Below are positions 15,892-39,391 of a DNA stretch of 64,000 bases, piece after piece (the first letter of the stretch is position 1; each line of letters begins with the position of its first letter). The DNA is from Myxococcus eversor (lineage in GTDB: Bacteria > Myxococcota > Myxococcia > Myxococcales > Myxococcaceae). The DNA lies in the NCBI RefSeq assembly GCF_010894455.1, contig NZ_JAAIXY010000020.1:119136-183135 (forward strand), in the 5' to 3' direction. The notes under the pieces are model-generated. The model saw only the letters and a program-made list of their open reading frames with translations. It had not been told where the DNA came from and did not search any database. The position numbers and the translations under genes are program-made.

Positions 15892-15976
15892 CCGTCGACT
15901 CTACCGCCGTTCCGCGCTGACGCCCGCGCGCGCGAAGCCCGCGGCATGACGCGTTGCGTTTGTGCATTATCGGAAA

Positions 15977-15999
15977 GTGACAGTTGCCACATCTGTCAC
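15977..15999. promoter_or_regulatory. inverted repeat between amidase and deaminase genes
   Basis: GTGACAG (15977-15983) and CTGTCAC (15993-15999) form a perfect 7-bp inverted repeat with centres 16 bp apart, about one and a half helical turns. It lies in the divergent promoter region and may be an operator for one or both genes. No regulator gene is adjacent. Confidence 0.45.
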
Positions 16000-16098
16000 A
16001 GACGTGCCGCACGGTGAACGCGTTCCCGACTCGGGGCTCGTGTTGAAGGTGTGGCTTCTATGCTCGTGTGCGCGCCTTCTTCGCGAGCGGGAGCCTCC

Positions 16099-16842: not shown

Positions 16843-18482
16843 GTGTTCGAGTTGGCGACGCGGGGTGACATCAGCGCGCGCAGCTTGCCGAGCAGGGTGA
16901 GGAACTCCGCGCGGTCTTCCTGACCGTCCACCGCGTCCTCCGCGAGCGAGTGGATGCGCGAGAAGCCCCGGTCATCGGTGGGCGCGGTGCCGCGCAGAAG
17001 GTCCGCGGTGCCAGCGACGGCGACGGCGAAGCGCAGGTCGGAGGATGCCCTCGTCAGGGATTCACGCACCCGGTTGCGCGGGAGGGCGAAGCGCTGCTCG
17101 GAGACCTCGGAGTCGCCGGGCTTCTTGGCGCGCACGCGGACGGTGGCGACGGTGGAGCCTTCGCCCGTCAAGTCGAGTTCGTACAGCGCGGTGACGGTGT
17201 GGCCCGCGCCGATTTCGCCCGCGTCGACGGCGTCCTCGCGGAAGTCCTTGTCGGCGATGGCGCGGTTCTCGTAGCCGAGCAGCCGGTAGCCGCGCACGGC
17301 GGCCGGGTCGAACTCCACCTGGATTTTGACGTCCTGGGCGATGACCTCCATGGTGCCGCCGAGCTGCTCCTGGAAGACGCGGCGGGCCTCGCGCTCGGAG
17401 TCGATGTAGAAACAGTTGCCGTTGCCCTTGTTGGCCAGACGCTCCATCAGGTCATCGCGGTAGTTGCCCATGCCGAAGCCGATGGTGGAGAGGGTGACGC
17501 CTTCCTTCACGTAGCGGCTGATGCTCTCCAGCATGGAGTCCGCCGTCTGATTGCGGCCGAGGTTGGTGTCGCCGTCGGTGAGGACGACGACGCGCGAGAC
17601 GCGGTTGGCGCCGGCCATGCGCACGGCGTGCTGATAGGCCAGCTCCAGGCCGCTGCCCATGGCGGTGCCGCCGCCCGAGGAGAGCTCGTCGATGACGGAC
17701 TCGATGTGCTTGCGTTGGCTCGCGGGGGTGGTGTCGAGCACGGTGCGCACGTCGCCCGCGTAGGTGGAGATGGTGACGGTGTCGGTGGGGTTGAGGCCGG
17801 CGACGGCGAGCTTCATCGACGTCTTGGCGAGCTCCAGTCGGTCCGTGCCGGACATGGAGCCGCTGGTGTCCACGAGGAACACGAGGTGCGTGGACTTGCG
17901 CTGGGCCTGGGCGACGTGGCGGCCCTGGAGGCTCACCTTGAGGATGTGCTGGCTCGGGGTGAAGGGGGAGGGCGCGGCCTCCAGCGCGACGTGGAAGGCG
18001 CCTTCGCCGGGGGCGGGCTCGGGGACGCGGTAGCGGAAGTAGTTGACCCATTCCTCGACGCGGACGGTGTGGGCGGAGGGCAGCCGGTTGTTTTGCACGG
18101 CGCGGCGGAAGAGGGCGTAGGAGGCGGTGTCCACGTCCACGGCGAAGGTGGAGAGCGCGTCATCTGCGGTGCGGGTGTAGGCGTTGGGGGCGAGGCGCTC
18201 CACGGGATAGGATGGGGAGATCGCCGGCTCCGAGGCGCCCGGGTTGAAGTGCTGCATCGACTTGCGGGGCAGGGATGGCGAGGAGGACGCGCCGTCATAT
18301 TCGGAGTTCGCTCCGAAGCTGCGCAGGGTCTTCTGGCGCGCCACCACGTCCGGGCTGCCGGCGAGCGCCCCGCAGGTCGCGCCGAAGTGCTTGCGGATGT
18401 TGTCGCCGAACAGCGTGACTCCGGCCACAAAGGCGAGCGCCGCCGACAGCAGGGTGAAGGTGACCTTCAAGGACTTGCTCAT
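16836..18482 (-). CDS. VWA-domain protein (YfbK-like)
   Basis: A 548-residue membrane-anchored protein. A hydrophobic N-terminus (about residues 5-25) precedes a VWA N-terminal region (TFAVDVDTASYALFRRAV), then a von Willebrand A domain with an intact MIDAS DTSGSMSG and VLTDGDTNLG, and a C-terminal DUF3520-type region ending in RAEFLTLLGKLRAL. MIDAS proteins bind divalent metal and a partner's acidic residue. Start 18482 has GAGG nearby; ATG 18512 adds ten residues and is possible. The partner is unknown; no MoxR gene is adjacent. Confidence 0.85.
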   Translation of the reverse strand: MSKSLKVTFTLLSAALAFVAGVTLFGDNIRKHFGATCGALAGSPDVVARQKTLRSFGANSEYDGASSSPSLPRKSMQHFNPGASEPAISPSYPVERLAPNAYTRTADDALSTFAVDVDTASYALFRRAVQNNRLPSAHTVRVEEWVNYFRYRVPEPAPGEGAFHVALEAAPSPFTPSQHILKVSLQGRHVAQAQRKSTHLVFLVDTSGSMSGTDRLELAKTSMKLAVAGLNPTDTVTISTYAGDVRTVLDTTPASQRKHIESVIDELSSGGGTAMGSGLELAYQHAVRMAGANRVSRVVVLTDGDTNLGRNQTADSMLESISRYVKEGVTLSTIGFGMGNYRDDLMERLANKGNGNCFYIDSEREARRVFQEQLGGTMEVIAQDVKIQVEFDPAAVRGYRLLGYENRAIADKDFREDAVDAGEIGAGHTVTALYELDLTGEGSTVATVRVRAKKPGDSEVSEQRFALPRNRVRESLTRASSDLRFAVAVAGTADLLRGTAPTDDRGFSRIHSLAEDAVDGQEDRAEFLTLLGKLRALMSPRVANSNTY

Positions 18483-18627
18483 GGAGCCTCGGGGCGTGGA
18501 AGGAGTCGTCATGCGTGAGCTACTCGTCGCACGAGTGCTTCACGCCGCGCGTCCGTCATTCGCCCGAGGTCGGTCAACGGGAGGAGGTCGGTCATCCGCC
18601 CGATGCGGCCTCGCGCTCACGCCGAGT

Positions 18628-18855
18628 TCACCTTCGTCTTGGCTCCTCGGGTGGGAGGCGGCGCAGGCGCCACACGTTCCAGGCCTCCAGGGCCGTCGTG
18701 GCCGTGAAGAAGAGAGCCAGGGCCCCTGTGATTTTCGCGGCCCATGTCACGCTGAAGAGCATCGCGCACAGCCACAGGGCCAACATGAACAGGACCAGTC
18801 GGGTGCCGCTGCGGAAGGCGACCTCGGACTGACGGATGCGGGTGGCTCGCTTCAT
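18628..18855 (-). CDS. small two-helix membrane protein
   Basis: A 75-residue protein with two predicted membrane helices (about residues 19-37 and 40-60) and an arginine-rich C-terminal tail (WRLRRLPPEEPRRR), which places the termini in the cytoplasm. No family is recognised. The frame has protein-like composition and an ATG at 18855, but the ribosome site is weak. It lies between the VWA gene and the lytic transglycosylase, same strand, without obvious coupling. Confidence 0.6.
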   Translation of the reverse strand: MKRATRIRQSEVAFRSGTRLVLFMLALWLCAMLFSVTWAAKITGALALFFTATTALEAWNVWRLRRLPPEEPRRR

Positions 18856-19041
18856 GGTCGACCCGGGACTCGTTTCATTGCACCTCGGGTTGTCGAGCCT
18901 GTCACGAAACCAGGGCTCGCCTACGATGCCATCGAGCAGTTGGTTCCCGTCGACGAATGACGTTGGTGGAATCTCGAATGGCCAAGGCCACCTGTTCGAG
19001 GGCCTTGATGGTGGGGCTCTCCCGCGACAACTCGGGAGGCC

Positions 19042-19947
19042 TCAACCCGGGCGCGTGTTCACCGTGACGGAGGGCTTCGCCTGCGTCGCACGAGTCGGCG
19101 CCTTCGCGGGAGCAGCCTCTGTCTTCGGCTTCGCCTTGGGGGCCACCGGCTTGGCGACGACCGTGGTGCGCGCTGGCGCCGCCACTGGCTTCGCAACGGC
19201 CTTGGGCCACACAGGCGCCACGGGCTTCGCCGCCACCTTGGCCACCGTCTTCTTGCTCACAGCCGCCACGGCGGGCCGCACAGGCGCCACGGGCTTCGCC
19301 ACCGCAGCCACCACGGGCCGAGCACGGGCCGCAACCACCGGCACAGGACGCGGCGGCTCCGGCGGCCTCGTCTGCACCCACGCCGTGAGCACCTTGGGCA
19401 CGTAGTACTCCGTCTCCCCGTTCCTCGGCACGCGCCCATTCACGGAACCGGGCCCCGCGTTGTACGCGGCCACCGCGAGCTTCACGTCCCGAAACCTTCG
19501 AAGCTGCTCGGCCAGATACCGCGCGCTTCCATCCAACGCCGGCTCCGGGTCGAACGGGTCAGCCACCCCCAGCATCACCGCCGTGGTGGGCATCAACTGC
19601 CCGGGCCCCATCGCTCCCGCCGGAGAGATGCGGTGCACCCGCCCCTCCGACTCCACCAGCACCAGCGCCTGCAACAACCCCGGAGGCAGCCCGTGCCGCC
19701 GCTCCGCCCGCGCGATGAGCGGCTCCAGCGGCTCGTGCCCATCCCACAGACACGACGGCCGGTGCGCCACATACGTGCCCAGCGCGTTCACCTTCATCTC
19801 CAGGAACGACAGCGACAACGGCGACACATGCGTGTCACCCAGCCACGAGATGGCCCCGTTGATGAGGACCACCGGCACGACGGCCGCCAGCCCCACCCAC
19901 GCCCACCACGGAATGCTGAAGCCACCCAGGGCCCGCTTGCGCGCCAC
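19042..19947 (-). CDS. membrane-anchored lytic transglycosylase with A/K/P/V tail
   Basis: A 301-residue SLT-type lytic transglycosylase that cuts peptidoglycan glycan strands. One membrane helix (residues 12-33) precedes the catalytic domain, with Glu in ALVLVESEGR, then SPAGAMGPGQLMP and LAVAAYNAGPGSVNG. From about residue 205 the protein is an Ala/Lys/Pro/Val tail with repeated AKPVAP-like units, probably a wall-spanning spacer. It starts with a GTG; AAGGG lies upstream. It begins nine bases after the TetR gene, so the two are probably cotranscribed. Confidence 0.88.
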   Translation of the reverse strand: MARKRALGGFSIPWWAWVGLAAVVPVVLINGAISWLGDTHVSPLSLSFLEMKVNALGTYVAHRPSCLWDGHEPLEPLIARAERRHGLPPGLLQALVLVESEGRVHRISPAGAMGPGQLMPTTAVMLGVADPFDPEPALDGSARYLAEQLRRFRDVKLAVAAYNAGPGSVNGRVPRNGETEYYVPKVLTAWVQTRPPEPPRPVPVVAARARPVVAAVAKPVAPVRPAVAAVSKKTVAKVAAKPVAPVWPKAVAKPVAAPARTTVVAKPVAPKAKPKTEAAPAKAPTRATQAKPSVTVNTRPG

Positions 19948-19956
19948 ACTCCACCC

Positions 19957-20682
19957 TTAAGTGCGCCTGGCCCCTCCGTCCAACTTCCGGCGCCCCTCCC
20001 GTGTCCCAGGCGGCACTCGCAGCCCATCCAACACCAGCGTCGTCAGCGCATCCGGCAACTCCAGCGGATTGCCGATGTCCTCCTCACTCAACACCGCGAG
20101 CAACAACCGCTCCACCGCCCCCACCACCGCGAGCCCGCTCACCGCCGGCCGTATCGGCCGCAACAGCCCATGCGTGTGCGCCTTCTGGGTGATGTCCACC
20201 GCGTGCCGCGACACCTCCCGCGCCAGCTCCGCCACCTTCTGCCGCGCCCCCACCGCCGGCCCCCGACTCTCCTGGAGGTACAGCCGCACCACCCCCGGGT
20301 ACTGCAACAACGCGCTCGCGATGACAGCCGCCATCGCCCGGTACGCCTCGAACATCGCCTCCACGCCGCGCGCCTTCCCGAGCGCCTGGCCGCACGCCTC
20401 CAACCCCGAGAGCAGCTCGCCCCGCACCGGCTCCAACAGCGCCTCCACCAGCCCCGCCTTGTCGACGAAGTACCGGTAGAACGTCCCCTTGGCCACGCCC
20501 GCCGCCTGGGTGATGTCGTCGATGGTCACCGCGTCCAGCCCCCGCTCCACGAAGAGCTTCAGCGCCGCGTCCTCCAACTCCTTCGTCCGCTCCCGCCGCG
20601 CAGTCTCCCTCGGGCCACCCGGCCTCCCCGGCCGCTTGTCCGCCTCCACGCCCCTGTCTCTCGTGCCGTCGCGGCTCACCAT
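19957..20682 (-). CDS. TetR/AcrR-family regulator
   Basis: A 241-residue one-component regulator. The N-terminal helix-turn-helix reads LKLFVERGLDAVTIDDITQA then AGVAKGTFYRYFVDK, a standard TetR DNA-binding domain; the rest is an all-helical ligand/dimer domain. ATG 20682 has GGAG upstream. It is divergent from a fatty-acid-hydroxylase-like gene and upstream of the transglycosylase. A 14-bp imperfect palindrome in the divergent gap is a candidate operator. The ligand is unknown; fatty acyl compounds would fit the neighbour. Confidence 0.9.
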   Translation of the reverse strand: MVSRDGTRDRGVEADKRPGRPGGPRETARRERTKELEDAALKLFVERGLDAVTIDDITQAAGVAKGTFYRYFVDKAGLVEALLEPVRGELLSGLEACGQALGKARGVEAMFEAYRAMAAVIASALLQYPGVVRLYLQESRGPAVGARQKVAELAREVSRHAVDITQKAHTHGLLRPIRPAVSGLAVVGAVERLLLAVLSEEDIGNPLELPDALTTLVLDGLRVPPGTREGRRKLDGGARRT

Positions 20683-20717
20683 CGTGCGCTCCGACTCATT
20701 GCGTGATAGATAAAGAG

Positions 20718-20731
20718 TGACCAAATAGTCA
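20718..20731. promoter_or_regulatory. candidate TetR operator
   Basis: TGACCAAATAGTCA is a partial palindrome (TGAC...GTCA) in the only AT-rich patch between the divergent TetR and hydroxylase-like genes. TetR proteins typically bind short palindromes of this kind. Confidence 0.5.
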
Positions 20732-20779
20732 TGATATTGAGGGTGGGGTGTCGGCCGGGCGCCCCCCTGGAGAGCGACG

Positions 20780-21322
20780 ATGATCGGCATCCCTCTGGGC
20801 TGGGCGTACTCCAATTTCGGTGAATGGGCGCTGCACAAGTACGTGCTGCATGGCCTGGGACGACGCCGGGGAAGCTTCTGGGGCTTCCACTGGCACGAGC
20901 ACCACCAGGCGTCCCGCAAGCACGACATGCTGGATGACCAGTACCTGCGTTCGCTGTGGACGTGGTCCGCGCAGACGAAGGAGCTGCTCGGGCTGGCCGC
21001 CGTGGCCCTGGCGCACGCGCCGCTGTTCCCGGTGGCGCCCTTCTTCGTGGGCACCGTGTGGGCCTGCGCGGTGAACTACTACCGAGTCCACCGCCGCGCG
21101 CACCTGGAGCCCCAGTGGGCCCGGGAGCACCTGCCCTGGCACTATGACCACCACCTGGGCTCGGACCAGAACGCGAACTGGTGCGTGACGCACCCGTTCT
21201 TCGACAACGTGCTGGGCACTCGGCGCGAGTACCTGGGCGTGCAGCCCTCGGCCTCCGCGGTACCGGTGGTGCCCATTGGCACGGGGGAGCGCCTGACGTC
21301 CGCGTCCCCCGCGCACCCGTGA
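20780..21322 (+). CDS. fatty acid hydroxylase/sterol desaturase-like membrane protein
   Basis: A 180-residue protein with histidine clusters of the di-iron membrane hydroxylase family: ALHKYVLHG, FHWHEHHQ, YYRVHRRAH and LPWHYDHHLG. Two hydrophobic segments lie at about residues 70-100. It is short compared with full-length sterol desaturases (over 250 residues), but the His motifs that bind the iron pair are present. Likely role: hydroxylation or desaturation of a lipid chain. GGAG sits seven bases before the ATG. Divergent from TetR, which probably controls it. Confidence 0.8.
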   Translation: MIGIPLGWAYSNFGEWALHKYVLHGLGRRRGSFWGFHWHEHHQASRKHDMLDDQYLRSLWTWSAQTKELLGLAAVALAHAPLFPVAPFFVGTVWACAVNYYRVHRRAHLEPQWAREHLPWHYDHHLGSDQNANWCVTHPFFDNVLGTRREYLGVQPSASAVPVVPIGTGERLTSASPAHP

Positions 21323-21329
21323 CGCGGGT

Positions 21330-21875
21330 CTAGAAGACCAGGTCGAAGTAGTTCGCCTTGGCGCGCACGCCCGCGCACGCCTCCAGCCGCGCGTTCCAGT
21401 CCCGCGTGGGCAGCGAGCCGCGGGCATCGAAGACCAGCTCCAGCGAGTCCTCGCGGGCCATGTCCAGCAGGTTCACCGCGCCGCTGCCGGTGAGCCGGAT
21501 GGACTGCGTGGGCGACGTGTTGGCGCGGCGGTACTCGCCGATGAGGATGCTCTCGCTGGTGCCCGGACGGACCACCGAGACGCTCGCGCGCTCGATTCCG
21601 CTCAGGTCCGTGCTGGACGTCACCTCGAAGACCTTGAGGCGCAGCTCCGTCTCCACGTCGGTGTCCTGCGGGAGCACCTCGTCGAAGTCACCCAGGGGGA
21701 AGTCGAGCGAGTACTGGAGGCTGAGGGTGCCGGGGAGGGCGGCGGGGAAGTCGACGTCGGGCTCGGCCTTGCAGATCTCCTCGGCCTCCGCCTCGATGAA
21801 GAAGAGGGAGTCGCAGCCGGTGGCGGCCAGCGCACAGGTGGAGAGCACCAGGGCGCGGAAGGTATTCGTTCGCAT
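21330..21875 (-). CDS. lipoprotein of unknown function
   Basis: A 181-residue lipoprotein: signal RALVLSTCALAATGC with the lipobox Cys at residue 21. The mature part is beta-rich with no family I recognise; two further cysteines (residues 35 and about 167) could pair. It starts 15 bases after the beta-barrel protein gene, so the two are probably one operon and may act together in the outer membrane. Confidence 0.75.
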   Translation of the reverse strand: MRTNTFRALVLSTCALAATGCDSLFFIEAEAEEICKAEPDVDFPAALPGTLSLQYSLDFPLGDFDEVLPQDTDVETELRLKVFEVTSSTDLSGIERASVSVVRPGTSESILIGEYRRANTSPTQSIRLTGSGAVNLLDMAREDSLELVFDARGSLPTRDWNARLEACAGVRAKANYFDLVF

Positions 21876-21890
21876 GGTGTGTCTCCAGAC

Positions 21891-22520
21891 TCAGAAGAAA
21901 TAGAAGAGGAAGCCCACCTTCACGGAGGGGATGGTGGCGCGCACGGTGAGGTTGCGCGCGGTGATGTCCGACTCGCCCGTGGCGTCTTCGATGAGCGCGC
22001 TCGCGTCGTCCACGCCCATGCGCACGTAGCTCAGGCCCAGGTGCAGGAAGAAGTTGAAGCGGCTGGAGGCGCCGATTTCGAGCCCCACGCTGCCGGCGAC
22101 GTAGTCGTAGCTGATGTCGCGGATGGAGGACGTGGCCGACGTGGGCGTGGCCCCCAGCCAGTCCACCACGTCGTTGTAGTCGGAGCCGAGGTAGTGCCCG
22201 CCCTCCACGTTGATGGAAGGGGAGATGAACGTCTGCATCGGCAGGATGCTGAGGCCGCCGCGCAGGCCCAGGCTCAGCGTGTTGGTGGTGGGGCCCGCCT
22301 GCAGTCGCAGCCAGGGCAAGGGCTTGAAGACCGCGGACACGCCGATGCCATGGGGCGCGCCCGCATCCACCAGCAGTCCCAGGCGGTAGTGCTCCGAGCC
22401 CCCCGTCTCCTGTGCGTGCGCGGCGCCGCCGGTGGCGACCGCCACGAGGCCAGCCAGGGCCGCGCCATGTCGTCGGAGGAATGCCGCACGTCGTCTCGTC
22501 GAAGGTGTTGCCGTCGTCAT
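21891..22520 (-). CDS. outer-membrane beta-barrel-like protein
   Basis: A 209-residue secreted protein. The signal peptide has an arginine-rich start (TRRRAAFLRR) and ends at GAAHA-Q near residue 36. The mature part alternates hydrophobic and polar residues in strands and ends in KVGFLFYFF; the terminal Phe is the usual outer-membrane barrel signature. About eight strands are expected at this size. ATG 22520 has GGAA upstream; a GTG at 22532 is less likely. It is followed closely by a lipoprotein gene. Confidence 0.75.
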   Translation of the reverse strand: MTTATPSTRRRAAFLRRHGAALAGLVAVATGGAAHAQETGGSEHYRLGLLVDAGAPHGIGVSAVFKPLPWLRLQAGPTTNTLSLGLRGGLSILPMQTFISPSINVEGGHYLGSDYNDVVDWLGATPTSATSSIRDISYDYVAGSVGLEIGASSRFNFFLHLGLSYVRMGVDDASALIEDATGESDITARNLTVRATIPSVKVGFLFYFF

Positions 22521-22624
22521 GTGCTGTTCCACGAAGGATGTCCGGCCCGGCGACCATCATTCGGCGGCACGCGCTGAAACGGAAGTCGCGTGGACGAAAA
22601 TGATGTGCCCTCGTGTCCGAGGCG

Positions 22625-22644
22625 GGGAAAGCCCTGGCTTTCCC
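22625..22644. repeat. GGGAAAGCC/GGCTTTCCC inverted repeat
   Basis: A near-continuous 9-bp inverted repeat (22625-22633 with 22636-22644) in the 279-nt gap between the divergent barrel and OmpA-domain genes. Could be an operator or an RNA hairpin; nothing decides between them. Confidence 0.4.
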
Positions 22645-22799
22645 GCGCGGGTTTTCCCGGCGGAGCGGAGCGCTGCCGTGACATGCGGGGCAGGCGGGCG
22701 CGAGCCACCCACGCGCTCCGACTTCTCAACGCGGAGACTCGCACGCGCGGTGAAGAAGCGGTTAGAGTTCAGCTTCCAACAGAGCTCCAGGGGGCGAGG

Positions 22800-23681
22800 A
22801 TGTCTCACAACAAGGTCACCGCGCGGAAGCTCACGTCGGGCCTCGGGTTGCCGACGGGTGAGGCCCACACCCTGGTCCTCAAGCGCCGCGCGGCCGTCGT
22901 GGTGGAGCTGGACGACCTCAACTTCCACTCCGGCAGCGCCGTGCTCCTACCCGCGCCCCATGCGCGCGAGAACTGGCGCGAGGGCCACACGGGGGGACTG
23001 ACGTGTGTCATCCGCGCGCTCGAGTACGCGCTGGAGAAGAAGCAGACGCTGCTCGTCGCCGGGCACACCGACAGCGTCGGAGGGGATGGCTCCAACCGCG
23101 CCCTGTCGAAGGCCCGCGCCGAGAACGTCCACCACTTCCTCACGGGCGACAAGGCGGGCTGGGCGGCCTCCTGCGCCGAGCACACCGTGCAGGACTATCA
23201 GACGGTCCTCACCTGGGTGGCGGACGAGTACGGCTGGAGCTGCGACCCGGGTGGCATCGATGGGCGGCACGGCTCGCGCACCACGGCGGCGCTCACCGCG
23301 TTCCGCAAGGGCGTGGAGGCCGCGCACGGCTCGAAGCCGCCGGACTCCCGTGCGCCGGGCGTGGAGGACTGGAAGGCCGTCTTCCAGCTCTATGAGACGT
23401 ATGTCGCCGGCCGCGTGGACCTGAAGGCCGCGAGGGGCGCGCTGAGCTTCGCCACGCCCGCGGTGCTCGGGTGCGGCGAGGACTGGCCCATCGAAGGGCA
23501 GGGCCAGGACAACCTGCGCTCGCAGGTCAACCGACGCGTGGAGCTGGTCTTCTTCGAGGAGCCGCCGCCGGACTTCTCCCGCCAGAGTCCTCCGGGCGCG
23601 CAGCTCTACGGTGCCCAGGCCGGCTACCAGCGCAGCTATCTGCCCATCACCCCGCGCCACACCTTCTTCTTCTCCGTCTGA
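22800..23681 (+). CDS. OmpA-like peptidoglycan-binding protein without signal peptide
   Basis: A 293-residue protein. An OmpA C-terminal domain begins near residue 33 (ELDDLNFHSGSAVLLP), contains LLVAGHTDSVGGDGSN and is completed near the end by NLRSQVNRRVELVFFE. Between these halves (about 130-215) sits a peptidoglycan-binding-type insert (GIDGRHGSRTTAALTAFRKG). No signal peptide or membrane segment is visible, which is unusual for a wall-binding protein. The start at 22800 has a G-rich ribosome site. It lies 36 bases before the three-domain wall hydrolase gene and upstream of a contractile injection locus, so delivery by that machine is possible. Confidence 0.85.
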   Translation: MSHNKVTARKLTSGLGLPTGEAHTLVLKRRAAVVVELDDLNFHSGSAVLLPAPHARENWREGHTGGLTCVIRALEYALEKKQTLLVAGHTDSVGGDGSNRALSKARAENVHHFLTGDKAGWAASCAEHTVQDYQTVLTWVADEYGWSCDPGGIDGRHGSRTTAALTAFRKGVEAAHGSKPPDSRAPGVEDWKAVFQLYETYVAGRVDLKAARGALSFATPAVLGCGEDWPIEGQGQDNLRSQVNRRVELVFFEEPPPDFSRQSPPGAQLYGAQAGYQRSYLPITPRHTFFFSV

Positions 23682-23717
23682 GGCGCTTGTCGCGCCGTCA
23701 CCTCGCGTGGAGCCACC

Positions 23718-26390
23718 ATGCCCGTTCCGGAAGTCCTGAGACTCTACGGACGTACCGACGTGTTGACCGCGGTGGGAGACCAGCAGCCGCCCACCAGCGC
23801 CCCGGCGTGGAACGCGGCGACGCGCCACCGCGACGTCACGCGGACCATCACCCTGCACTACACCCACGGCTGGGTGGCGGGGAACTGGCAGGCGCCCTCC
23901 ACGGACTGGTACGGCGCCACCTTCAACATCGACCTGGATGGGACGCTGTTCCAGTGCGAGGAGATGATTGTCCGCACCAACCACGTGGGCGGTGCGCCCG
24001 ACTTCTCCGGGCAGTACAGCTTCGTCAACCTCACGTCCATCGGCGTGGAGCTGGCGCGCTTCGGCAAGATTCAGCAGGGCCCCGCGCTCTACAGCGTCAA
24101 TGGCTATCCTGGCATCGACTTCCAGACGGTGGCCACCTTCCCGGACGAGTGCGACTACAGCATGCATCCGGGCTCGAAGACGGGCGGCACGCGCCGCTTC
24201 AAGCTGGGCAAAATCAATGGCGGGACGGTGCTCCAGAGCACCAGCGCCAACCGCGCCTACTACTACATCAAAGTCGCCACGTTCGACGACGCGCGCAATG
24301 ACAACCGCGCCACGTACCCGCTGGACGTGCTCTTCACCGAGGAGCAGTACCAGACGCTGGTGAAGTGGGCGAAGTGCATGTGCGAGATGAATCGCATCCC
24401 CAAGGCCTTCCTGCTGCATCCGGCCACCGGCGTCGAGCAGCCCTGGATTGACGTCCAGGACCTCATCGAGCTCAACACTCCCGCGGTGCTCCAGAACAAG
24501 GAGCGGGTGCGCTCCTTCCAGGGAATCATCGGGCACAACAACATCCAGGCGGACCGCTCGGACCCGGGCGCGTCCATGGACTTCTACCGGCTCAAGCGCG
24601 GCGTCAGCGACGAGTGGTGGTACCCCGTCAACCTGGACGACACGACGCGGGCGCTGAACTACCTGGAGACGGCGCGCTCCGCCGACTACATCGCGATGAC
24701 GGCGTACAACGTCGCCAGCCGTCGCGAGGACTACTTCACCGCCTGCGAGGGCACGGGCGGCGGCTACTTCCCGGTGGGCCTCAATCGCCTGTGGCACGGC
24801 GGCGTCCACCTGGCTTCGGGGGAGAACGCGCGGCCCGTCTACGCCATGGCCAATGGCCGCATCGTCGCCGCGCGCGTCGCCAACGGGCTGGTGCAGGGAG
24901 TCGAGCCTCGCTACAGCCGCTGCTTCGTGCTCGTGCGCCACGAGGTGCACGTGCGCGAGGACGCGAACCGCGCGGGGGAAATCGACTACGGGGCCGACTC
25001 CACCGAGACGGTCTATTCGCTCTACATGCACCTGCGGCCGAACGTGATTGCGCGGAGCGATGTGGGGGCGCCGGTGGTGGACTACGCGGCGCATCCGGAC
25101 TGGCTCAATCACTACCTCATCGACCATCCGACGGACCGGGCGCCCGACAACGGCGACATCTTCTATCCCGACCAGACCGTGCTGCTCAGTGACCTGGTGG
25201 GCCACTCGGGCACGTACATCACCGGACTGGATGCCACCGGGCCCGTGTATGGGCCCACGGTGCACGTGGAGGTCTTCACCACCGCGGACGTGTCCCGGTT
25301 CGCCGACAGCCCGTGGGTGGAAGCCGCCAACCGGATGGAGGACACCACCGAGGACCTGGTCTGTGATTTGCCCGCGTTGGATGACTGGCTCCAGGGGCGG
25401 GGCTATCCGCCCATCACCCAGGTCGATGTCCGCACCGCGGTGAGCGACTTGCGCCAGGTGGCCGTGCGCTTCCGCAGCGAGTGGAGCCTGGAGACGCGGG
25501 AGCAGCTCACGCAGACCATCGTCGTGGGGCAGCCGGCCGTCGAGGTGGCGCTGACGCAGGCGCTCACCAACGAGCAGTGGGAGGCGAACATCCGTCCCCT
25601 GTGCTTCCACACGGACATGCAGGCAGCCGCCACCGAGGCCGTCATCGGGCCCTTCCTGGGCGACTCGCACGTCTGGCACCTGCACCCGCTCGTATTCATG
25701 CAGTGGATGAACGAGCGCGTCGCGCGGCACGAGCAGATTCTGCGCTCCCAGGACAAGACGCGCGGACAGGTGGCGAGCACCATCGCCGTGGAGAACGGGT
25801 ACGTGGTGCGCTTCGTGAATCCCGTGCCCTCCGTGGCGCCGGCGCAGGGGTACGCGGAGGTCCGGTGGAATGACAACCTCTATGAAGTCACGGTGGACCG
25901 TCTCTGTGATTTGACGGCGCTGGCCGCGGCGCCGCAGCAGACGACGCGCTTCCGGATGCGCCTGTTGGATGCGCTGGAGATGATCAACGACCGTCAGCAC
26001 GGCGTCACGGTGCTGCTGAGCCATGTGGCGGTGGAGGTCAACGCGCTGAGTGCCCGGGCGGGACAGCACCTCGCGGGGAACGCCGTGGATGTGCGCCCCG
26101 GCAATGGCACCACGGTGGCGAACTGGTTCGAGTTCTTCCAGACGGTGCAGCGCGTGGTGACGTACCTGAACAACCGCGAGGGCGCGGGCTCCGTCGTGCT
26201 GGAGATGTTGCAGGACGCCGACGGGACGGTTCGAGCCCAGGTGGACGCGACGGCGAACAGCCGGGAGTGGCTGACGCGGCTGCGCGCGGCGACGGCCGCC
26301 ACGGATGCGCTCCTGACGGCCGTCACCCCCGAGTCCGCCACGCTCCAGGCCGAGCTGGGACAGATGCGCCTCCACCTGCACGCACCCTGA
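23718..26390 (+). CDS. three-domain peptidoglycan hydrolase-like protein
   Basis: An 890-residue protein with no signal peptide. Domain 1 (about 40-295) is an N-acetylmuramoyl-L-alanine amidase_2 type: His47, His272 and Asp282 in IIGHNNIQADRSDPG are the zinc-type residues. Domain 2 (about 355-520) is LytM/M23-like (LWHGGVHL, ARPVYAMANGRIVAA, SLYMHLRP, GPTVHVEV), but the usual HxxxD is HxxxH and the first His of HxH is Thr. Domain 3 (about 740-815) resembles M15 carboxypeptidases (GQHLAGNAVDV, His784 and Asp791). It could attack glycan-peptide and peptide bonds together. Cotranscribed with the OmpA-type gene; a candidate cargo of the adjacent contractile system. Confidence 0.85.
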   Translation: MPVPEVLRLYGRTDVLTAVGDQQPPTSAPAWNAATRHRDVTRTITLHYTHGWVAGNWQAPSTDWYGATFNIDLDGTLFQCEEMIVRTNHVGGAPDFSGQYSFVNLTSIGVELARFGKIQQGPALYSVNGYPGIDFQTVATFPDECDYSMHPGSKTGGTRRFKLGKINGGTVLQSTSANRAYYYIKVATFDDARNDNRATYPLDVLFTEEQYQTLVKWAKCMCEMNRIPKAFLLHPATGVEQPWIDVQDLIELNTPAVLQNKERVRSFQGIIGHNNIQADRSDPGASMDFYRLKRGVSDEWWYPVNLDDTTRALNYLETARSADYIAMTAYNVASRREDYFTACEGTGGGYFPVGLNRLWHGGVHLASGENARPVYAMANGRIVAARVANGLVQGVEPRYSRCFVLVRHEVHVREDANRAGEIDYGADSTETVYSLYMHLRPNVIARSDVGAPVVDYAAHPDWLNHYLIDHPTDRAPDNGDIFYPDQTVLLSDLVGHSGTYITGLDATGPVYGPTVHVEVFTTADVSRFADSPWVEAANRMEDTTEDLVCDLPALDDWLQGRGYPPITQVDVRTAVSDLRQVAVRFRSEWSLETREQLTQTIVVGQPAVEVALTQALTNEQWEANIRPLCFHTDMQAAATEAVIGPFLGDSHVWHLHPLVFMQWMNERVARHEQILRSQDKTRGQVASTIAVENGYVVRFVNPVPSVAPAQGYAEVRWNDNLYEVTVDRLCDLTALAAAPQQTTRFRMRLLDALEMINDRQHGVTVLLSHVAVEVNALSARAGQHLAGNAVDVRPGNGTTVANWFEFFQTVQRVVTYLNNREGAGSVVLEMLQDADGTVRAQVDATANSREWLTRLRAATAATDALLTAVTPESATLQAELGQMRLHLHAP

Positions 26391-26625
26391 GGTCGGTGCC
26401 AAGATGGTCCCCATGCGCGCGAGCGACGAACGTCAACGGTCCAAGTGGTGTCCGCCTGGGAGGCTCGTCATGGCGAGCGGATTCGTGACGGAGGGCCGAC
26501 GCAATCCCGCGCTGCTCGGGAGTCGCGGGAGGTCGTCCATGGGGCGTCGGGTGAGCGTGGTTCCTTCGCGAGGGGCCGGAGCCCGAGGCGGGGCAGTGTC
26601 GTCCTGGCGAACGTCGGAGGGCGTG

Positions 26626-28026
26626 GTGTGGCGTCTGGCGCTCGGGTGGATGGTGGTGGTGCTTCCGCTGCTGACCGGTGCCTGTCGGCAGGCGGTCGCC
26701 GCCGAGTCGTCCCCGCCCGCGCCTGTCCTCCAACAGCGGTCCTCGGTGGCGACGCCTGGCACCCCACCGTCCTCGACCGGACCCGTTCCTCCGCCACAGG
26801 CCGTGGGGACGCCACCCGCCACCGCGTCCGCTCAAGTCCCGCTGTTGCTCGGCGTGGACCCCACCCAGGCCATCCAGGACACGGAGTCGGCGTTGCAGTC
26901 CGTGCGCGCCGCCGTCGGACGCAAGGACTTCGCCTCGGCGGCACGGGACATCGAAGCACTCCTCCAGGCCGACCTCCCGCGCTTCGCCTCCCTCTGGACG
27001 AATGACGCCGGGCTCGCGCCGCTGCGTGACAGCGAGCCCGGACGGGCGTTGGCGGCGCGACTGCCTCGGCTCGAGGCCTCCTGGCGCACGGCGCTGAACC
27101 AGGGCCTTCCCCTGGTGTGGTGGAAGCCCGCCGCGCCACGGAGCGAGGAGGGCGACGACTCGGAGGCGTTCACGACGCCGCCTCCCGCGTTGCTCCGCGC
27201 GGGTGTCTATCTGCCCAAGCAGCGTCGCTTCCTGCCGGCGGGGCCCCAGGAACCCGGCGTCATCCTCGCGCGTCTGTCGGTCGACCGCGCGAGTGTGCTG
27301 CTCGTCCGGGGAACCCTGGGGTTGGGCCTGACGTCGATGCTCACGGACCTGGAGGTGAGCATCCGTGATGCCGTGACAGGCAACCCGATGACTCCCGTGC
27401 GGAGCCCCGCTCCGGACTATCGCGGCCCGGAGGCGCTCCAGTGGAGCGAGGCCCGAGGCAAGTGGGCCTTCCGCGTCCAGAACGGCGACCAGACGAATCC
27501 CACGCTGCCCCAGTTCAGTGGATGGCGCGACGTGGCCACCGACGGCAAGTGGAGCATTCGCTCGGTGTCGGCCCACGGAGAGCTCATCTCCGAGGGCTCG
27601 GTGCTGCTCGGGCTCCCCGATGGCTGGGTGAGGGATGGGAAGATGCTCGTCGAGGAGTCGACGCGTCGGAGCATTCCGCACAACACCGAGCCGGCGAAGC
27701 ACCGCTTCCTCCAGGCCGTGATGGTGGGCGACACGCTCTGGTTGTCGGCCGTGGAGTCCTGGTGCGACGCCTCGACGCCGGAGCCGACGAGCATCCTCCG
27801 CCATGTTGTGGAGCGCATCACCCGCGACAACAAGCGCGTGCGCGTCCATGAAGGGCCCGGCGGCGCTTCGCTCATGTCGCTGGGGGAAGGAGGCCTCATC
27901 GTGCAGGTCGACAAGGAGGCCCGGCGGTTTCTCGCGAGCGTGACGACATGGAAGGAAGCGACGGCCCTGCCGGAGGGCGTGCTGCTGACCACGCCCCTCC
28001 AGCCCAAGGTCTGTCACTCGCTCTGA
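26626..28026 (+). CDS. lipoprotein of unknown function
   Basis: About 466 residues. The frame is open from 26404, but a GTG at 26626 with GGAGG five bases upstream begins a clean lipoprotein signal (WRLALGWMVVVLPLLTGAC), so I take it as the start. A Pro/Ser/Thr-rich linker follows, then a helical stretch with a TPR-like look (VGRKDFASAARDIEALLQAD) and a beta-rich remainder. No family is recognised. It sits between the wall hydrolase and the contractile locus on the same strand; a role there is only guilt by association. Confidence 0.65.
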   Translation: MWRLALGWMVVVLPLLTGACRQAVAAESSPPAPVLQQRSSVATPGTPPSSTGPVPPPQAVGTPPATASAQVPLLLGVDPTQAIQDTESALQSVRAAVGRKDFASAARDIEALLQADLPRFASLWTNDAGLAPLRDSEPGRALAARLPRLEASWRTALNQGLPLVWWKPAAPRSEEGDDSEAFTTPPPALLRAGVYLPKQRRFLPAGPQEPGVILARLSVDRASVLLVRGTLGLGLTSMLTDLEVSIRDAVTGNPMTPVRSPAPDYRGPEALQWSEARGKWAFRVQNGDQTNPTLPQFSGWRDVATDGKWSIRSVSAHGELISEGSVLLGLPDGWVRDGKMLVEESTRRSIPHNTEPAKHRFLQAVMVGDTLWLSAVESWCDASTPEPTSILRHVVERITRDNKRVRVHEGPGGASLMSLGEGGLIVQVDKEARRFLASVTTWKEATALPEGVLLTTPLQPKVCHSL

Positions 28027-28562
28027 CGCTGTCCATCCTCCACGCGAGTCCCTGGCTCAGGGCCGCGTGGGTGCTGTCGGCTCGCGCCACAGGGGCAGGG
28101 TGATGCGGCTGCCTCCGAGCCAGGTGATGTCGAGCGGCACTTTCGCGTCGGCGATGGACTCGCTGCTGACGTCCTTGCCGGTGCCGTCATTGAGTTGCGC
28201 CTGCTTGTTGATGGCGAGCATGTCGGGGCATGGAGGCTCGGCGAGAGGGTCGCGAAGATGACGCTCGAGCGGGCGCTTCTTGTGGCTTCGTGTGCGGAGA
28301 GCGCTTCACGGACATGCGCGTCCACCGGAGCCGCGCGCGGTGGAGGTGTGCGGGGGGCGCACCCGTTCGGTTCACGAGTTCGCGTTGGCTCTGTGCTCCG
28401 TCCGACGAAGCACGTGTCACGCGCGCCAGCGTGTTGAGCCCGCGACGGCGGCTCCGTCCTTCGGACCAATTACCGCGGCCCGCAGCCGATGCCACCTTGC
28501 CTGCCCGGACGTCACTGGCGATGCAGGCACGTGAGCACCGGCCCAGGACCTCGGGGGACCGG
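28027..28562. other. 536-nt gap before the contractile locus
   Basis: This gap holds a coding-looking minus-strand remnant (28057-28305) and otherwise no supported gene. The stretch before 28563 presumably contains the promoter of the injection-system operon, but no convincing boxes stand out; a G-rich ribosome site lies immediately before 28563. Confidence 0.4.
28057..28305 (-). pseudogene. possible gene remnant without start codon
   Basis: A minus-strand frame is open for 83 codons between a stop at 28306-28308 and the stop at 28057. Its last ~60 residues look like real protein (PCPDMLAINKQAQLNDG and LDITWLGGSRITLPLWRE), unlike the overlapping frames. The only ATG lies inside (residue M of PDML), giving 54 residues without a ribosome site. 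I read it as the 3' end of a lost gene, perhaps deleted when flanking DNA was inserted. Family unknown. Confidence 0.35.
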
Positions 28563-29246
28563 ATGATCGACGAAGTCGATCTGCGTTTGAAGTCGTGGGC
28601 AGGCCGAATCGCTGGCGATGCACCCGTGCATCTGGGGGCACCGGACCGTGAGGCCGTTGAGCGCGGCGTGTGTCTGTACCTGCTGGAGCTGGGGCCCGCG
28701 CCTCCCGCTCGAGGCGGGCGCCGGGTGCCGCTGCAGATCTCCGTCTGCTACCTGGTCACCGCGGGCGCGGAGTCACCCGAGCTCGCCCACCGCCTGTTGG
28801 GGGAGCTGGTCTTCTCGGCCATGGAGGAGTCGGAGTTCGAGGTGGACCTCACGCCCGTGCCCGCCACCGTCTGGGCGGGGCTGCGCATCCCTCCGCGTCC
28901 CGGCTTCCGGGTGCGCCTGCCCGTGCGCCGCGAGCGTCCGCAGCCCATCGTCCACCGCGTGCGCTTCCCCGTCATCACCCAGGCGGTGCCCGCCGAGGCG
29001 CTGCTCGGCTGTGTCGTCGGGCCCGGTGACGTGCCCATCCCCGGTGCGTTGGTGGAATTGCCCGGGCTGAGCCTGGTCACTCGCACCGACGACAAGGGCT
29101 GCTTTCGTTTTCCCCGCGTGCCGCCAGTGGCCACGCTGGGGCGGCTGGAGGTGCGAGCGAAGGGGGAGTTGCTCGCGCTGGGGCCGGAGGCGCTCGCCTC
29201 CGAGCCTCAACCACTGCTCATTCGCCTGCCGCTGAAGGAGGACTGA
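28563..29246 (+). CDS. Pvc16/DUF4255-like cap or terminator protein
   Basis: A 227-residue protein at the head of the contractile locus. The N-terminal ~130 residues follow the DUF4255 (Pvc16_N) pattern: a short helix, then LQISVCYLVTAGAESPELAH and a conserved multi-strand domain. This family caps the distal end of the sheath/tube in Pvc-type particles. Residues ~150-225 form a carboxypeptidase-regulatory-like beta sandwich (VPIPGALVELPGLSL, KGCFRFPRVP), an add-on not needed for capping. ATG 28563 follows a GGGGGA site; the longer open frame upstream lacks protein character. Confidence 0.7.
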   Translation: MIDEVDLRLKSWAGRIAGDAPVHLGAPDREAVERGVCLYLLELGPAPPARGGRRVPLQISVCYLVTAGAESPELAHRLLGELVFSAMEESEFEVDLTPVPATVWAGLRIPPRPGFRVRLPVRRERPQPIVHRVRFPVITQAVPAEALLGCVVGPGDVPIPGALVELPGLSLVTRTDDKGCFRFPRVPPVATLGRLEVRAKGELLALGPEALASEPQPLLIRLPLKED

Positions 29247-29247
29247 C

Positions 29248-30429
29248 GTGCCGACGAGCTACCTGACGCCTGGCGTCTATGTGGAGGAGGTTCCCAGCGG
29301 AACACGCTCCATCCAGGGCGTGGGCACCACCACCGCCGCCTTCGTGGGCCGGGCGCCCGCTCACGGCGCCCGGCTGAATCAGGCGGTGCCCGTCAATGGC
29401 TGGGCGCAGTTCGTGAAGGAGTTCGCGCCTCCCGGCACGCCAGGCACGGCCCTGGCCCGCGCGGTGTATGGCTTCTTCGAGAACGGTGGCCGGCGCTGCT
29501 TCATCGTCAACATCGGCGACAGCGAGAGCATCGTCGGCGACGCGCGCAAGCGGCAGGGCGTGGCGGTGTTGGAAGAGGTCAGCGAGGTGGCCATGGTGGC
29601 CGCGCCCGGCTTCACGAACCCCGCGGCGTGGGACGCGCTCCTGTCCCACTGCGAAAAGATGAGAGACCGCATCGCCATCCTCGACGCGCCCGAGGACGTC
29701 GAGGAGGTGGAGCGCCTCACGAAAATCTACTCGGGCGACGAGGGCGCCGGCATCCGCTGCCGCATGTCCGACCAGGGCTACGGCGCCTTCTACTACCCGT
29801 GGTTCTCCACGCCGGACCCGCTCGGCGACGGGAAGACCATGGTCAACGTGCCGCCGTCCGGGCACATCGCGGGCATCTACGCGCGCACGGACGTCACCCG
29901 GGGCGTGCACAAGGCGCCCGCCAACGAGGTGGTGCGCGGGGCGATGCGGCTGGTGCGCGACGTGACGCCGGAGGAGCAGGGCGAGCTGAACCAGATGGGC
30001 GTCAACTGCATCCGCTACTTCCCGCGCGGCGGCATCCGCGTGTGGGGCGCGCGCACGGTGGCGGACGCCGCCAGCGAGTGGCGCTACGTCAACGTGCGCA
30101 GGCTCTTCAACTTCGTGGAGGAGTCCATCGCGCTGGGCACCAACTGGACGGTGTTCGAGCCGAACGACCCCACGCTGTGGAAGTCCATCCACCGCGACGT
30201 GAGCGCGTTCCTGCTGCGGCTGTGGCGCGACGGCGCGCTGATGGGCCGCACCAAGGAAGAGGCGTTCTTCGTGCAGTGCGACGAGCAGACGAACACGCAG
30301 GAGACCATCGACGAGGGCCAGGTCATCGCCGTCATCGGCCTGGCACCGGTGAAGCCCGCGGAGTTCATCATCTTCCGAATCGGCCAGCATGCGGGCGGGG
30401 CGGAAGTGGAGGAGGTGTCCAATGGCTGA
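29248..30429 (+). CDS. contractile tail sheath protein
   Basis: A 393-residue sheath subunit. The N-terminus SYLTPGVYVEEVPSGTRSI is the classic start of phage-tail and Pvc/Afp sheath proteins, and the C-terminal half (YFPRGGIRVWGARTVADAA, YVNVRRLFNFVEESI) is the conserved sheath core. Sheath polymers contract to drive the inner tube outward. It starts at GTG 29248 with AAGGAGG upstream. Only one sheath gene is present, whereas Pvc loci carry three. It overlaps the tube gene by eight bases. Confidence 0.95.
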   Translation: MPTSYLTPGVYVEEVPSGTRSIQGVGTTTAAFVGRAPAHGARLNQAVPVNGWAQFVKEFAPPGTPGTALARAVYGFFENGGRRCFIVNIGDSESIVGDARKRQGVAVLEEVSEVAMVAAPGFTNPAAWDALLSHCEKMRDRIAILDAPEDVEEVERLTKIYSGDEGAGIRCRMSDQGYGAFYYPWFSTPDPLGDGKTMVNVPPSGHIAGIYARTDVTRGVHKAPANEVVRGAMRLVRDVTPEEQGELNQMGVNCIRYFPRGGIRVWGARTVADAASEWRYVNVRRLFNFVEESIALGTNWTVFEPNDPTLWKSIHRDVSAFLLRLWRDGALMGRTKEEAFFVQCDEQTNTQETIDEGQVIAVIGLAPVKPAEFIIFRIGQHAGGAEVEEVSNG

Positions 30430-30910
30430 AGCCAAGGCTCCCGAGGCGGCCCCGCCGGAGCAGGAGGCGGGCGCGCAGCCCGGCGCGCGCGCGGACCCGT
30501 TCCGCGCGTACAACTTCAAGCTGCTCATCGACGGGGTGAACGAGGGGCACTTCACCCAGTGCACCGGCCTGGAGGTCGAAGTCGCCGCGCTGCACTACCG
30601 CGAGGGCGGCGCGGGACCGGTGACGCGCAGGCTGGCGGGGCCCGTCACGCACGGCGACATGACGCTGCGCTATGGCGTCACCCAGTCGCCGGAGCTGTGG
30701 AACTGGTTCCTCGCGTCGATGAACGGCGTGCCGCAGTGCAAGAACGTGTCGGTGCTGCTCTTGGACATGGATGGGGTGACGGAGAGGCTGCGCTGGAACC
30801 TCAACGATGCCTGGCCGAAGAAGTGGCGGGCGGCGCCGCTGGATGCGCTCGGCCAGCAGATCGCCATCGACTCACTCACCCTCGTCTTCGAGTCCATCAC
30901 CCGTGGCTGA
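30422..30910 (+). CDS. contractile tail tube protein
   Basis: A 162-residue gp19/T4-like tube subunit. After an Ala/Pro/Glu-rich N-terminal extension of about 25 residues it has the family core: DPFRAYNFKLLIDGVNEGHF, TQCTGLEVEVA and WNWFLASMNG. It forms the inner tube through which cargo passes. Its start overlaps the sheath stop. Pvc-type loci have two tube proteins; this locus shows one. The extension could line or face the tube lumen. Confidence 0.93.
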   Translation: MAEAKAPEAAPPEQEAGAQPGARADPFRAYNFKLLIDGVNEGHFTQCTGLEVEVAALHYREGGAGPVTRRLAGPVTHGDMTLRYGVTQSPELWNWFLASMNGVPQCKNVSVLLLDMDGVTERLRWNLNDAWPKKWRAAPLDALGQQIAIDSLTLVFESITRG

Positions 30911-32159
30911 GCCCGCGCGCGGACCCGTGCCCGGCGCGTGGCTGCGCGCCGTTGCCCGGAAGATGAAGGCGTGGGCGGAGTCCGTCCTCTCCGAGGAGGA
31001 GAGCGACTTCGCCGCCGCGCTCGCCCAGGCGCGCGTGCCGCCCGAGCTCGCGAGCCCCTCTTCCATCGACGGTGCCTCCACCGCCTCCACGCCCGTCACG
31101 GTGACGGCGCCTCCCACGGGGCTGAGTCCGCCGGAGCACTGGATCCGCGATGTCCAGGGGCGGCGCACCCAGACGCCTCCCGCGGACTGGGTGGCCCGGG
31201 TGCGCAAGGTCGCGCCCCATCTCGTGGAGGGACTGGCGGAGCCGGAGGCGCCGCTCCCGGTGAGTGAGTCCCACCAGTCGTTCCGGGCGCGGATGCTGCG
31301 CGCGAGCGAGCCCGACAAGTCCGCCTCCGCGCGGCCCGCGCCGGTTCGCGACGCCTCGCGGCCCGCCGTGCTCCCCGCGCCCTCCTCCCGCCGCGTCGCG
31401 CCGGGTGCTCCCGTGGAGCCTGTTGCCCCGGTGTCGATGCGGCGCGAGGTCAGCGGCCAGGGCCCCGTGAGCGCTCATCACGAAGAGCCGTCGCGGGCCT
31501 CGAAGCTGAAGCCCCTGGCGCCGGCGCATCCCTTCTCATCGCCTCCCGCGACACCTGCTCCCGTGGTGTCGGGGCGGTCCTCCAGTGAGGGGCCCGTCAC
31601 TCCCGTCCCCACGCCGATGATGGGAGGGCCGCCCTTCGCCAATCCGGTGATGGTGGCCGCCTCGCCCGCGTCTCCCTGCGAGGTGTGCGTGCCTCCGCTG
31701 GGTGAAGAGGACCGAGAGCGGAGCCTGTGCGCCTCCGGATTTCACCAGGGCATCTCCGCGTCCCAGGCGCTGGAGTTGCAACGCGAGGGCACGAGCGGAA
31801 TGTCCTTGCCTCCGCCGCGTGCCTTGCCCCGGTCCACGGGCGAGCCGTGGCGTGTGCGTCGAGGCCCGGACGAAGTCCAGGCGCGGGAGGCCGAGGCGGT
31901 GCGCCGGGATGTGTCCCACGAACCCACGCCTCCGTTCGCGCCACGCACCTGGACGGATGCGGAGGAGCACTCCGCCTCGCGCTTCGCCACCCCGGTGGGA
32001 GATGAGCCACATGGAGCCTCCGAGGATGCCGCCCCGTCCGAGCACGCCTCCTGGCCGGAGCTCCCCACCGCCCTGACTCCGGAGTCTCCGGACGTCGCCG
32101 AGGAGATTCGGCTGTGGACGCGGCTGCGCCGGCTCGAGCGCGAGCAGCGGGGTGACTGA
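30903..32159 (+). CDS. Pro/Ala/Ser-rich protein in the Pvc6 position
   Basis: About 418 residues from a GTG overlapping the tube stop. Apart from a short N-terminal helix (KAWAESVLSEEESDFAAALA) and a charged C-terminal helix (EEIRLWTRLRRLEREQR), it is a long low-complexity Pro/Ala/Ser/Val-rich chain, likely disordered. It sits between tube and LysM genes, where Pvc/Afp loci have the small gene 6. The C-terminal helix could dock to the baseplate while the linker reaches elsewhere. No homologue is recognised. ATG 30963 is an alternative start. Confidence 0.75.
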   Translation: MAEPARGPVPGAWLRAVARKMKAWAESVLSEEESDFAAALAQARVPPELASPSSIDGASTASTPVTVTAPPTGLSPPEHWIRDVQGRRTQTPPADWVARVRKVAPHLVEGLAEPEAPLPVSESHQSFRARMLRASEPDKSASARPAPVRDASRPAVLPAPSSRRVAPGAPVEPVAPVSMRREVSGQGPVSAHHEEPSRASKLKPLAPAHPFSSPPATPAPVVSGRSSSEGPVTPVPTPMMGGPPFANPVMVAASPASPCEVCVPPLGEEDRERSLCASGFHQGISASQALELQREGTSGMSLPPPRALPRSTGEPWRVRRGPDEVQAREAEAVRRDVSHEPTPPFAPRTWTDAEEHSASRFATPVGDEPHGASEDAAPSEHASWPELPTALTPESPDVAEEIRLWTRLRRLEREQRGD

Positions 32160-39382: not shown

Positions 39383-39391
39383 GCCCGCGCC

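Follow-up and report, generated by a model that had tools for sequence, protein, structure and literature searches.

A candidate peptidoglycan-targeting effector–immunity cassette in a variable slot beside a contractile injection system of Myxococcus

Results

In a 64,000-nucleotide stretch of Myxococcus eversor DNA (contig NZ_JAAIXY010000020.1, positions 119,136 to 183,135 of the forward strand; hereafter the window, whose own coordinates are used throughout), three genes, which we call A (22800-23681), B (23718-26390) and C (26626-28026), adjoin an operon for a contractile injection system (CIS) that lies downstream on the same strand and encodes sheath, tube, hub, gp25, J and I proteins. 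The best reading of these genes is that they specify cargo of a contractile machine, and the adjacent CIS is a likelier machine for this than the type VI secretion systems (T6SSs) of the same genome. The fuller proposal, that A, B and C together make up an effector-immunity cassette which occupies a cargo slot, with delivery by the adjacent CIS, stands in our judgment at about an even chance of being correct. It is based on fusions of A-type domains to spike and hub proteins in a family of the same order (f7), on the occurrence of A, B and C in the same 3 genomes, on the variability of the slot, on the absence of recognizable export signals from A and B, and on the lipoprotein signal of C. The host genome (G000) comprises 11.4 Mb in 124 contigs, with the window on contig C37.

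In the mechanism that we envisage, A would be a module that associates with the spike and binds peptidoglycan, B would be a peptidoglycan amidase, and both would bypass the Sec and Tat pathways and be carried on or in the contractile tube. Once released into the envelope of a target, A would act as a tether to peptidoglycan and B would cut the amide bond of the stem peptide, while C, as a Sec-exported lipoprotein in the periplasm, would protect the producer and its kin.

In the product of A (293 residues), a peptidoglycan-binding domain of the OmpA type precedes a PG_binding_1-like region. The Pfam match to OmpA (PF00691; E 7e-7, 30 bits against a cut-off of 27.2) covers residues 73-115 only, and the D and R of the OmpA site, which we take to be the residues that bind diaminopimelic acid, are invariant in all 6 sequences of an alignment (A1) of A with 5 f7 proteins. 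At E 0.01, Pfam reports no PG_binding_1 (PF01471) for A itself but does so for its aligned homologues, 4 of which match both families. Gene B starts 36 bp further on, on the strand of the CIS locus, and here the preliminary description of this DNA was exact in coordinates, lengths, strand and spacing. Its product (890 residues) begins with an Amidase_2 domain (PF01510; E 8.4e-8, 33.1 bits against a cut-off of 26), to which PHROGs adds a weak amidase match (1.4e-3). Four residues of B, H47, E111, H273 and D282, identified as Amidase_2-type by reading without a structural alignment, are invariant in 3 orthologues, and presumably correspond to the zinc ligands and catalytic Glu of AmpD and AmiD. 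Both genes are under purifying selection, with ratios of nonsynonymous to synonymous substitution (dN/dS), taken against 2 orthologues, of 0.02 and 0.10 for A and of 0.15 and 0.17 for B. A scan for promoters and terminators gave nothing above chance.

That neither protein carries an export signal had been proposed at the outset, and this is borne out: a hydropathy scan, by which alone export signals were judged, finds no N-terminal hydrophobic segment in A or in B. Elsewhere in the window the scan flagged 15 more called genes, some of whose products may not be exported. An upstream start that would add a signal peptide is not found for either gene, since A lengthened to the upstream GTG at 22590 still lacks a hydrophobic segment and the frame of B is open for just 12 codons before its ATG.

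The remainder of B calls for a revision. Of the wall-targeting domains first assigned to the pair, OmpA in A and Amidase_2 in B are supported by Pfam, the M23-like domain survives only in the form of a divergent family, and the M15-like domain is unsupported. The middle of B (residues ~333-445) belongs to a family found also in proteins of other genomes, most of them longer than 1000 residues. Pfam has no M23 match in B, and for a homologue of the B middle at locus L091, in genome G093, the M23 match is below threshold (22.6 bits against 28.7). M23 peptidases carry HxxxD plus HxH motifs; all 9 aligned members of the B-middle family have HxGxH with YMHL, and the first His of HxH is, by reading, absent, so that an M23-type activity of B is uncertain. 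Judged by sequence, the middle domain is a divergent M23-like family without the M23 motif set. This HxGxH family (L091 12258-14549; large proteins of L092-L097 and L104) possibly represents a metal site with an altered ligand. For the C-terminal part, M15 was rejected for want of any Pfam match at E 0.01 or any NCBIfam match and on an hhalign comparison with a related M15_4 domain that gave 0.1% probability over 10 columns, and nothing convincing matched the C-terminal third in sequence, solved-structure or hhalign comparisons. Among solved structures, the N-terminal part had no match at E 1, the C-terminal part had 3 (0.68-0.8), all unrelated to wall enzymes, and the middle matched an M23 peptidase (0.49) and lysostaphin (0.8) behind 2 hydrogenase matches, which is unconvincing. 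No homologue of B was found in phage records or viral contigs.

Gene C was missed in the preliminary description. Its frame is open for 540 codons (26404-28026), and the likely start, a GTG at 26626, gives a protein of 466 residues whose hydrophobic stretch ends in LTGAC, read as a lipobox from hydropathy and inspection. There is no match to C in Pfam or NCBIfam. The features of its sequence point to a lipoprotein, and it is a candidate periplasmic immunity protein. C evolves faster than A and B: its last 390 residues are 84.6% identical to those in genome G025, against 96.2% for A and 95.1% for B, and its synonymous divergence (dS) from that genome is 0.29, against 0.20 for A and 0.16 for B. 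The values for A and B resemble those of 2 neighboring genes and the sheath (0.17, 0.22, 0.24), which indicates a common history of A, B and the locus in these species. A partial relative of C (56% identity) occurs in G012 (L127, G012:C444), a genome without full-length A or B, and no relative of A or B was seen in the gene list of 19 kb around it.

Support for loading onto a contractile tip comes from family f7. The A1 profile, built from A and its 5 homologues, was searched in 195 genomes of the phylum at E 1e-20 and hit 17 places in 8 genomes, 3 of Myxococcus and 5 of f7. All 5 of these f7 genomes have CIS sheath homologues, and none has a match to VipB, the T6SS sheath; since CIS sheath homologues occur in 11 of the 12 f7 genomes searched, it is the fusions and not the presence of a sheath that carry weight. 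Thirteen of the 14 f7 places were examined (G094:C648 was left out), and at 5 of them the A-type domain is in or beside a gene for a spike, hub or PAAR protein. Three such proteins are encoded in a single genome, G084. The first, of 962 residues (L087), joins a hub (Phage_GPD/YQBQ) to OmpA, PG_binding_1 and Amidase_2 in an order that mirrors gene A followed by gene B, and its hub is homologous to that of the window CIS (24% over 349 residues, 4e-17). The second (L129) has a spike domain of the gpV type together with Amidase_2, 3 PG_binding_1 stretches and a match to the A1 profile; the third (also L129) consists of PAAR, OmpA and PG_binding_1. In G088, a gpV protein (L088) contains an A-type region (BLAST 7e-13; Pfam OmpA below threshold), and its spike part is 75% identical to a spike that G084 encodes next to sheath and tube genes. 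At L132, finally, an A-type gene adjoins a hub gene. What makes the proteins of L087, L129 and L088 comparable to A and B is that A-type, PG_binding_1 and Amidase_2 domains are carried there by the hub or spike of a CIS; they differ in being one polypeptide where the window has 2 genes.

A separate feature of the family is an N-terminal header of ~34 residues common to 7 f7 A-type proteins (L086, L089, L090, L130, L131, L133, L134), unmatched by A, which could be a loading signal. An N-terminal loading motif shared by A and these 7 proteins seemed plausible by eye but was rejected: a profile of the 7 missed A at E 10, and reported some shuffled copies of A but not A itself.

Full-length A, B and C were sought in 100 relatives (host included), and parts and profile in the 195 phylum genomes. 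Full-length B is present in 3 of the 100, and 18 more genomes match its middle domain only; of the 195, 3 have its N-terminal part at E 1e-3, G004 showing a further, weak place, and 3 have its C-terminal part. Full-length A is in the same 3 relatives (the tally is 39 when partial matches are counted), and so is C, which with the partial match in G012 makes 4 of 100. The genomes are the host, G004 and G025, and in each the trio lies upstream of this CIS. Hence, wide occurrence of the pair without any contractile locus, which would have told against the original suggestion, was not seen. Relatives of A in named species come from Myxococcus qinghaiensis (100%) and M. llanfairpwllgwyngyllgogerychwyrndrobwllllantysiliogogogochensis (96%).

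Across 27 genomes of the genus (G000-G026), gene content varies in the interval that separates the first CIS gene from a conserved beta-barrel-like gene (w21891). An orthologous sheath is kept at the locus in 12 of the 27; hub, gp25, J and I accompany it in 9 of them, G025 is cut by a contig end within the hub, and in G011 and G016 the hub-to-I genes are absent from the stretches fetched. The other 15 have a relative of the first CIS gene and no sheath at the locus (L144-L158; in G015 the contig ends just after). Five genomes (G002, G010, G012, G022, G026) fill the slot with Tox-REase-5 (Pfam), accompanied by Imm52 according to Pfam in the first 3 and tblastn in the last 2. There is no cassette in the slot of G020, and G019 has other genes there. 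None of the cassette families tested (A, B, C, Tox-REase-5, Imm52, and the DUF2169 and PAAR-like proteins of G025) occurs in the slot of any of the 15 genomes without this sheath, nor in G011 or G016. From this pattern comes a broader and more tentative proposal, which we rate as somewhat doubtful: the CIS loci of Myxococcus may have, upstream of the machine, a dedicated, interchangeable cargo slot, into which each lineage would load its own signal-less effector and immunity gene (in the window the wall amidase and lipoprotein, in other species a REase-fold nuclease and Imm52), and from which the cargo would vanish as the machine decays.

The operon that follows the slot is read as cap/terminator type at its first gene (28230-29246, +), which has a CarboxypepD_reg-like end (Pfam, sub-threshold); it is presumably Pvc16/DUF4255-like, although no search reported such a family. 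A relative is present at the locus in 27 of 27 genus genomes, outliving the sheath in all 15 that lack one there, often with relatives of the tube, w38279 or w40863/w42311. Next come the sheath (29248-30429, +; Pfam Phage_sheath_1 and _1C; PDB 8bky and 8bl4 at 1e-109 and 7e-107), the inner tube (30422-30910, +; Pfam Phage_T4_gp19, 2.5e-31; NCBIfam TIGR02241), a CIS_tube protein (32159-32908, +; Pfam CIS_tube) with a LysM-like end (weak NCBIfam match), and a VgrG-related hub/spike with GPD and gpV OB domains (32905-34422, +), for which Pfam gpV is above cut-off, and Pfam GPD and NCBIfam VgrG_rel are below. Baseplate genes occupy 34423-39868 (+), namely gp25 (34761), J (35186), I (37764), 38279 and a small protein (39392), with profile matches to Pfam Baseplate_J and Tail_P2_I and to NCBIfam TssE-like, TIGR02243 and TIGR02242; the gene at 34423 (+) is read as PAAR-like and has no profile match. 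The small protein (39392-39868), directly after the other baseplate genes, has one N-terminal hydrophobic stretch, no Pfam match, and relatives at 57-95% in the 8 other complete CIS loci of the genus; by analogy, it is possibly a membrane anchor such as CisA of Streptomyces.

Two unannotated genes downstream of the CIS (40863-43543; 454 and 410 residues) have no Pfam, NCBIfam or PHROGs match; their relatives at other loci are 31-54% identical, rising to 79% and 87% in G004, and in G033 a relative of the second lies directly upstream of the first CIS gene (L084 16658-17932). On the other side, upstream of A and B, an SLT transglycosylase (19042-19947, -) is a conventional wall enzyme with a hydrophobic N-terminus, kept whether or not the CIS is intact.

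Discussion

Export through a contractile tube, as first suggested for A and B, gains from the f7 fusions, from the toxin-immunity pairs in sister slots and from the co-occurrence with this CIS; that the adjacent CIS is the machine is a less certain matter, and the co-occurrence comes from one lineage. Several results count against delivery by the adjacent CIS and should be set out together. The 3 genomes with A-B-C are sister species in a tree of locus proteins, and so the trio represents a single lineage. Adjacency to the CIS is broken by insertions in 2 of the 3: in G004 by 3 opposite-strand genes (~3.5 kb), one of which encodes a fatty acid desaturase, and in G025 by a T6SS-type cassette and a peptidase gene (~7 kb in total). 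A cassette accompanies the sheath in 8 of 12 genomes against 0 of 15 without it (Fisher p 0.0002), a value we do not trust, since it was the intact loci that supplied the families tested and the species are not independent of one another by descent. When the tree is taken into account, pairing leaves only 2 independent pairs, with none contrary (p 0.5). The association of slot and sheath is therefore suggestive and not significant. Moreover, sheath homologues of lower similarity are encoded elsewhere in 14 of the 15 genomes that lack this one, so that the absence of a machine is not what these genomes show. For B, structure prediction failed (predicted local distance difference test 27.3, predicted template modelling score 0.20, from 3 near-identical sequences), and its amidase has no relation detectable by BLAST to that of L087 (E 0.16). 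To these are added the T6SSs of the host, a T6SS-linked relative of B, and the f7 places that lack a tip gene, each of which belongs with an alternative.

The host has 2 full VipB matches and a divergent third, as well as further CIS sheath homologues, with 6 sheath matches in all. It is conceivable that one of its T6SSs delivers A and B, which would then be effectors that lie by chance in a toxin hot spot beside the CIS. The middle of B speaks for this. Its relative at L091 is encoded in a T6SS-type locus, directly after 2 VgrG genes and near a DUF2169 gene and a PAAR-like Het-C protein, in a genome (G093) with VipB and no CIS sheath match. This locus is like B and C in that an HxGxH M23-like protein without an N-terminal hydrophobic segment is followed by a protein with one; it differs in its VgrG, PAAR-like and DUF2169 neighbors and in its machine. 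A T6SS-type effector-immunity cassette is also inserted in the slot of G025 (L071 12299-16718); its genes are of the DUF2169, ketoacyl-synthase-like, Tox-PAAR-like and TsiV types. That insert, however, lies downstream of C and brings its own TsiV-type immunity gene, and the CIS hub excepted, no VgrG, PAAR-like or DUF2169 match was found among the window genes scanned from 14464 to 28026 or the 3 genes inserted in G004. Nor does VipB explain the distribution of A and B, since it is present in all 10 genus genomes searched (of 27). The nearest relatives of A outside the genus are in the 5 genomes without a VipB match. The family of A points to a CIS and the middle of B to a T6SS; because the fusions and the slot were given more weight, we hold delivery by the adjacent CIS at even chances and regard T6SS delivery as unlikely, though the strongest of the alternatives.

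At 8 of the 13 f7 places examined (L086, L089, L090, L128, L130, L131, L133, L134), no tip domain was recognized in the protein or its called neighbors, by Pfam at 4 and by BLAST against tip proteins at others; several of these places are on short contigs. Most A-type relatives, then, stand alone. One may then ask whether A and B are simply passengers, an ordinary hydrolase pair (for cytoplasmic recycling, or exported by other means) that landed in a hot spot and is unconnected with any contractile machine. The slot does admit genes without the look of toxins, such as those for an alpha/beta hydrolase and the fatty acid desaturase in G004, and there are similar-looking slot genes in G003 and G005. 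A passenger role would leave unaccounted for the fusions of A-type and Amidase_2 domains to spike, hub and PAAR proteins, the confinement of full-length A and B, among the genomes searched, to those that have this CIS, and the lipoprotein partner C. We consider it improbable.

Wall enzymes might also serve the release of the machine. Among solved sheaths, the closest belongs to the Streptomyces coelicolor CIS (PDB 8BKY/8BL4), a cytoplasmic particle of a Gram-positive host that, in the passages available, mediates death of its own cell, belongs to a cluster related to the CIS IId subtype, and has no A/B-like effector (PMC10066040). R-tailocins, according to the part of a review at hand, are released with holin and lysin (PMC10598620). 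It is the likeness to a self-lysis-linked Streptomyces system that keeps alive the idea that A and B form a lysis or egress module and cut the wall of the producer, as the preliminary description had allowed, either to let CIS particles out or to help the CIS lyse the cell that made it. In the neighboring genes scanned, Pfam matched no holin or spanin family, although no search was aimed at these; in sister loci the slot holds toxin and immunity genes of the nuclease type, which are not lysins; the spike-fused A-type domains point to loading at the tip; and lipoprotein C would better fit immunity. The chances of such a module appear quite slim.

Among the described systems nearest to the one proposed here are the eCIS-associated toxins (EATs; eCIS, extracellular CIS). 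In the portion of Geller et al. 2021 consulted, EAT genes lie in or beside CIS operons, some as toxin-immunity pairs, and EAT10, a predicted peptidoglycan hydrolase, was cloned with and without a Tat leader (PMC8213781). Here, wall binding and hydrolase are encoded by 2 separate genes, a lipoprotein gene accompanies them, and what the slot contains changes from one related species to another; the main text of that paper has no match for Myxococc, OmpA or amidase. An excerpt of another study lists a peptidoglycan-binding domain in 68 predicted eCIS toxins (PMC11297309). In SLP-like actinobacterial CIS, as described in sections of a 2026 paper, a Sle1-type effector is likewise encoded beside the CIS with an immunity protein, one effector-immunity pair being reported, RS14790/RS14785, in which the gene downstream of the effector relieves growth inhibition; that effector is related to tape-measure proteins, and the sections have no match for amidase or M23 (PMC13277306).

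Antibacterial CIS cargo with matching immunity genes is thinly documented. A 2023 review, in the passages seen, states that no immunity proteins for such cargo had been identified (PMC10598620), while the 2021 survey and the 2026 paper report the pairs mentioned above. No description of a myxobacterial CIS cargo slot was found in titles, abstract openings and passages, a search that did not extend to supplements, preprints and most subscription journals. If the slot is indeed interchangeable, the CIS of Myxococcus would be an antibacterial or kin-discriminating weapon and not an anti-eukaryotic one, in which split spike modules like A would steer cargo to peptidoglycan. A cassette-swapping slot beside a machine that is absent from other species of the genus would make a tractable system for asking what a myxobacterial CIS delivers, and to whom, and whether separate wall-binding modules may act as loading adaptors.

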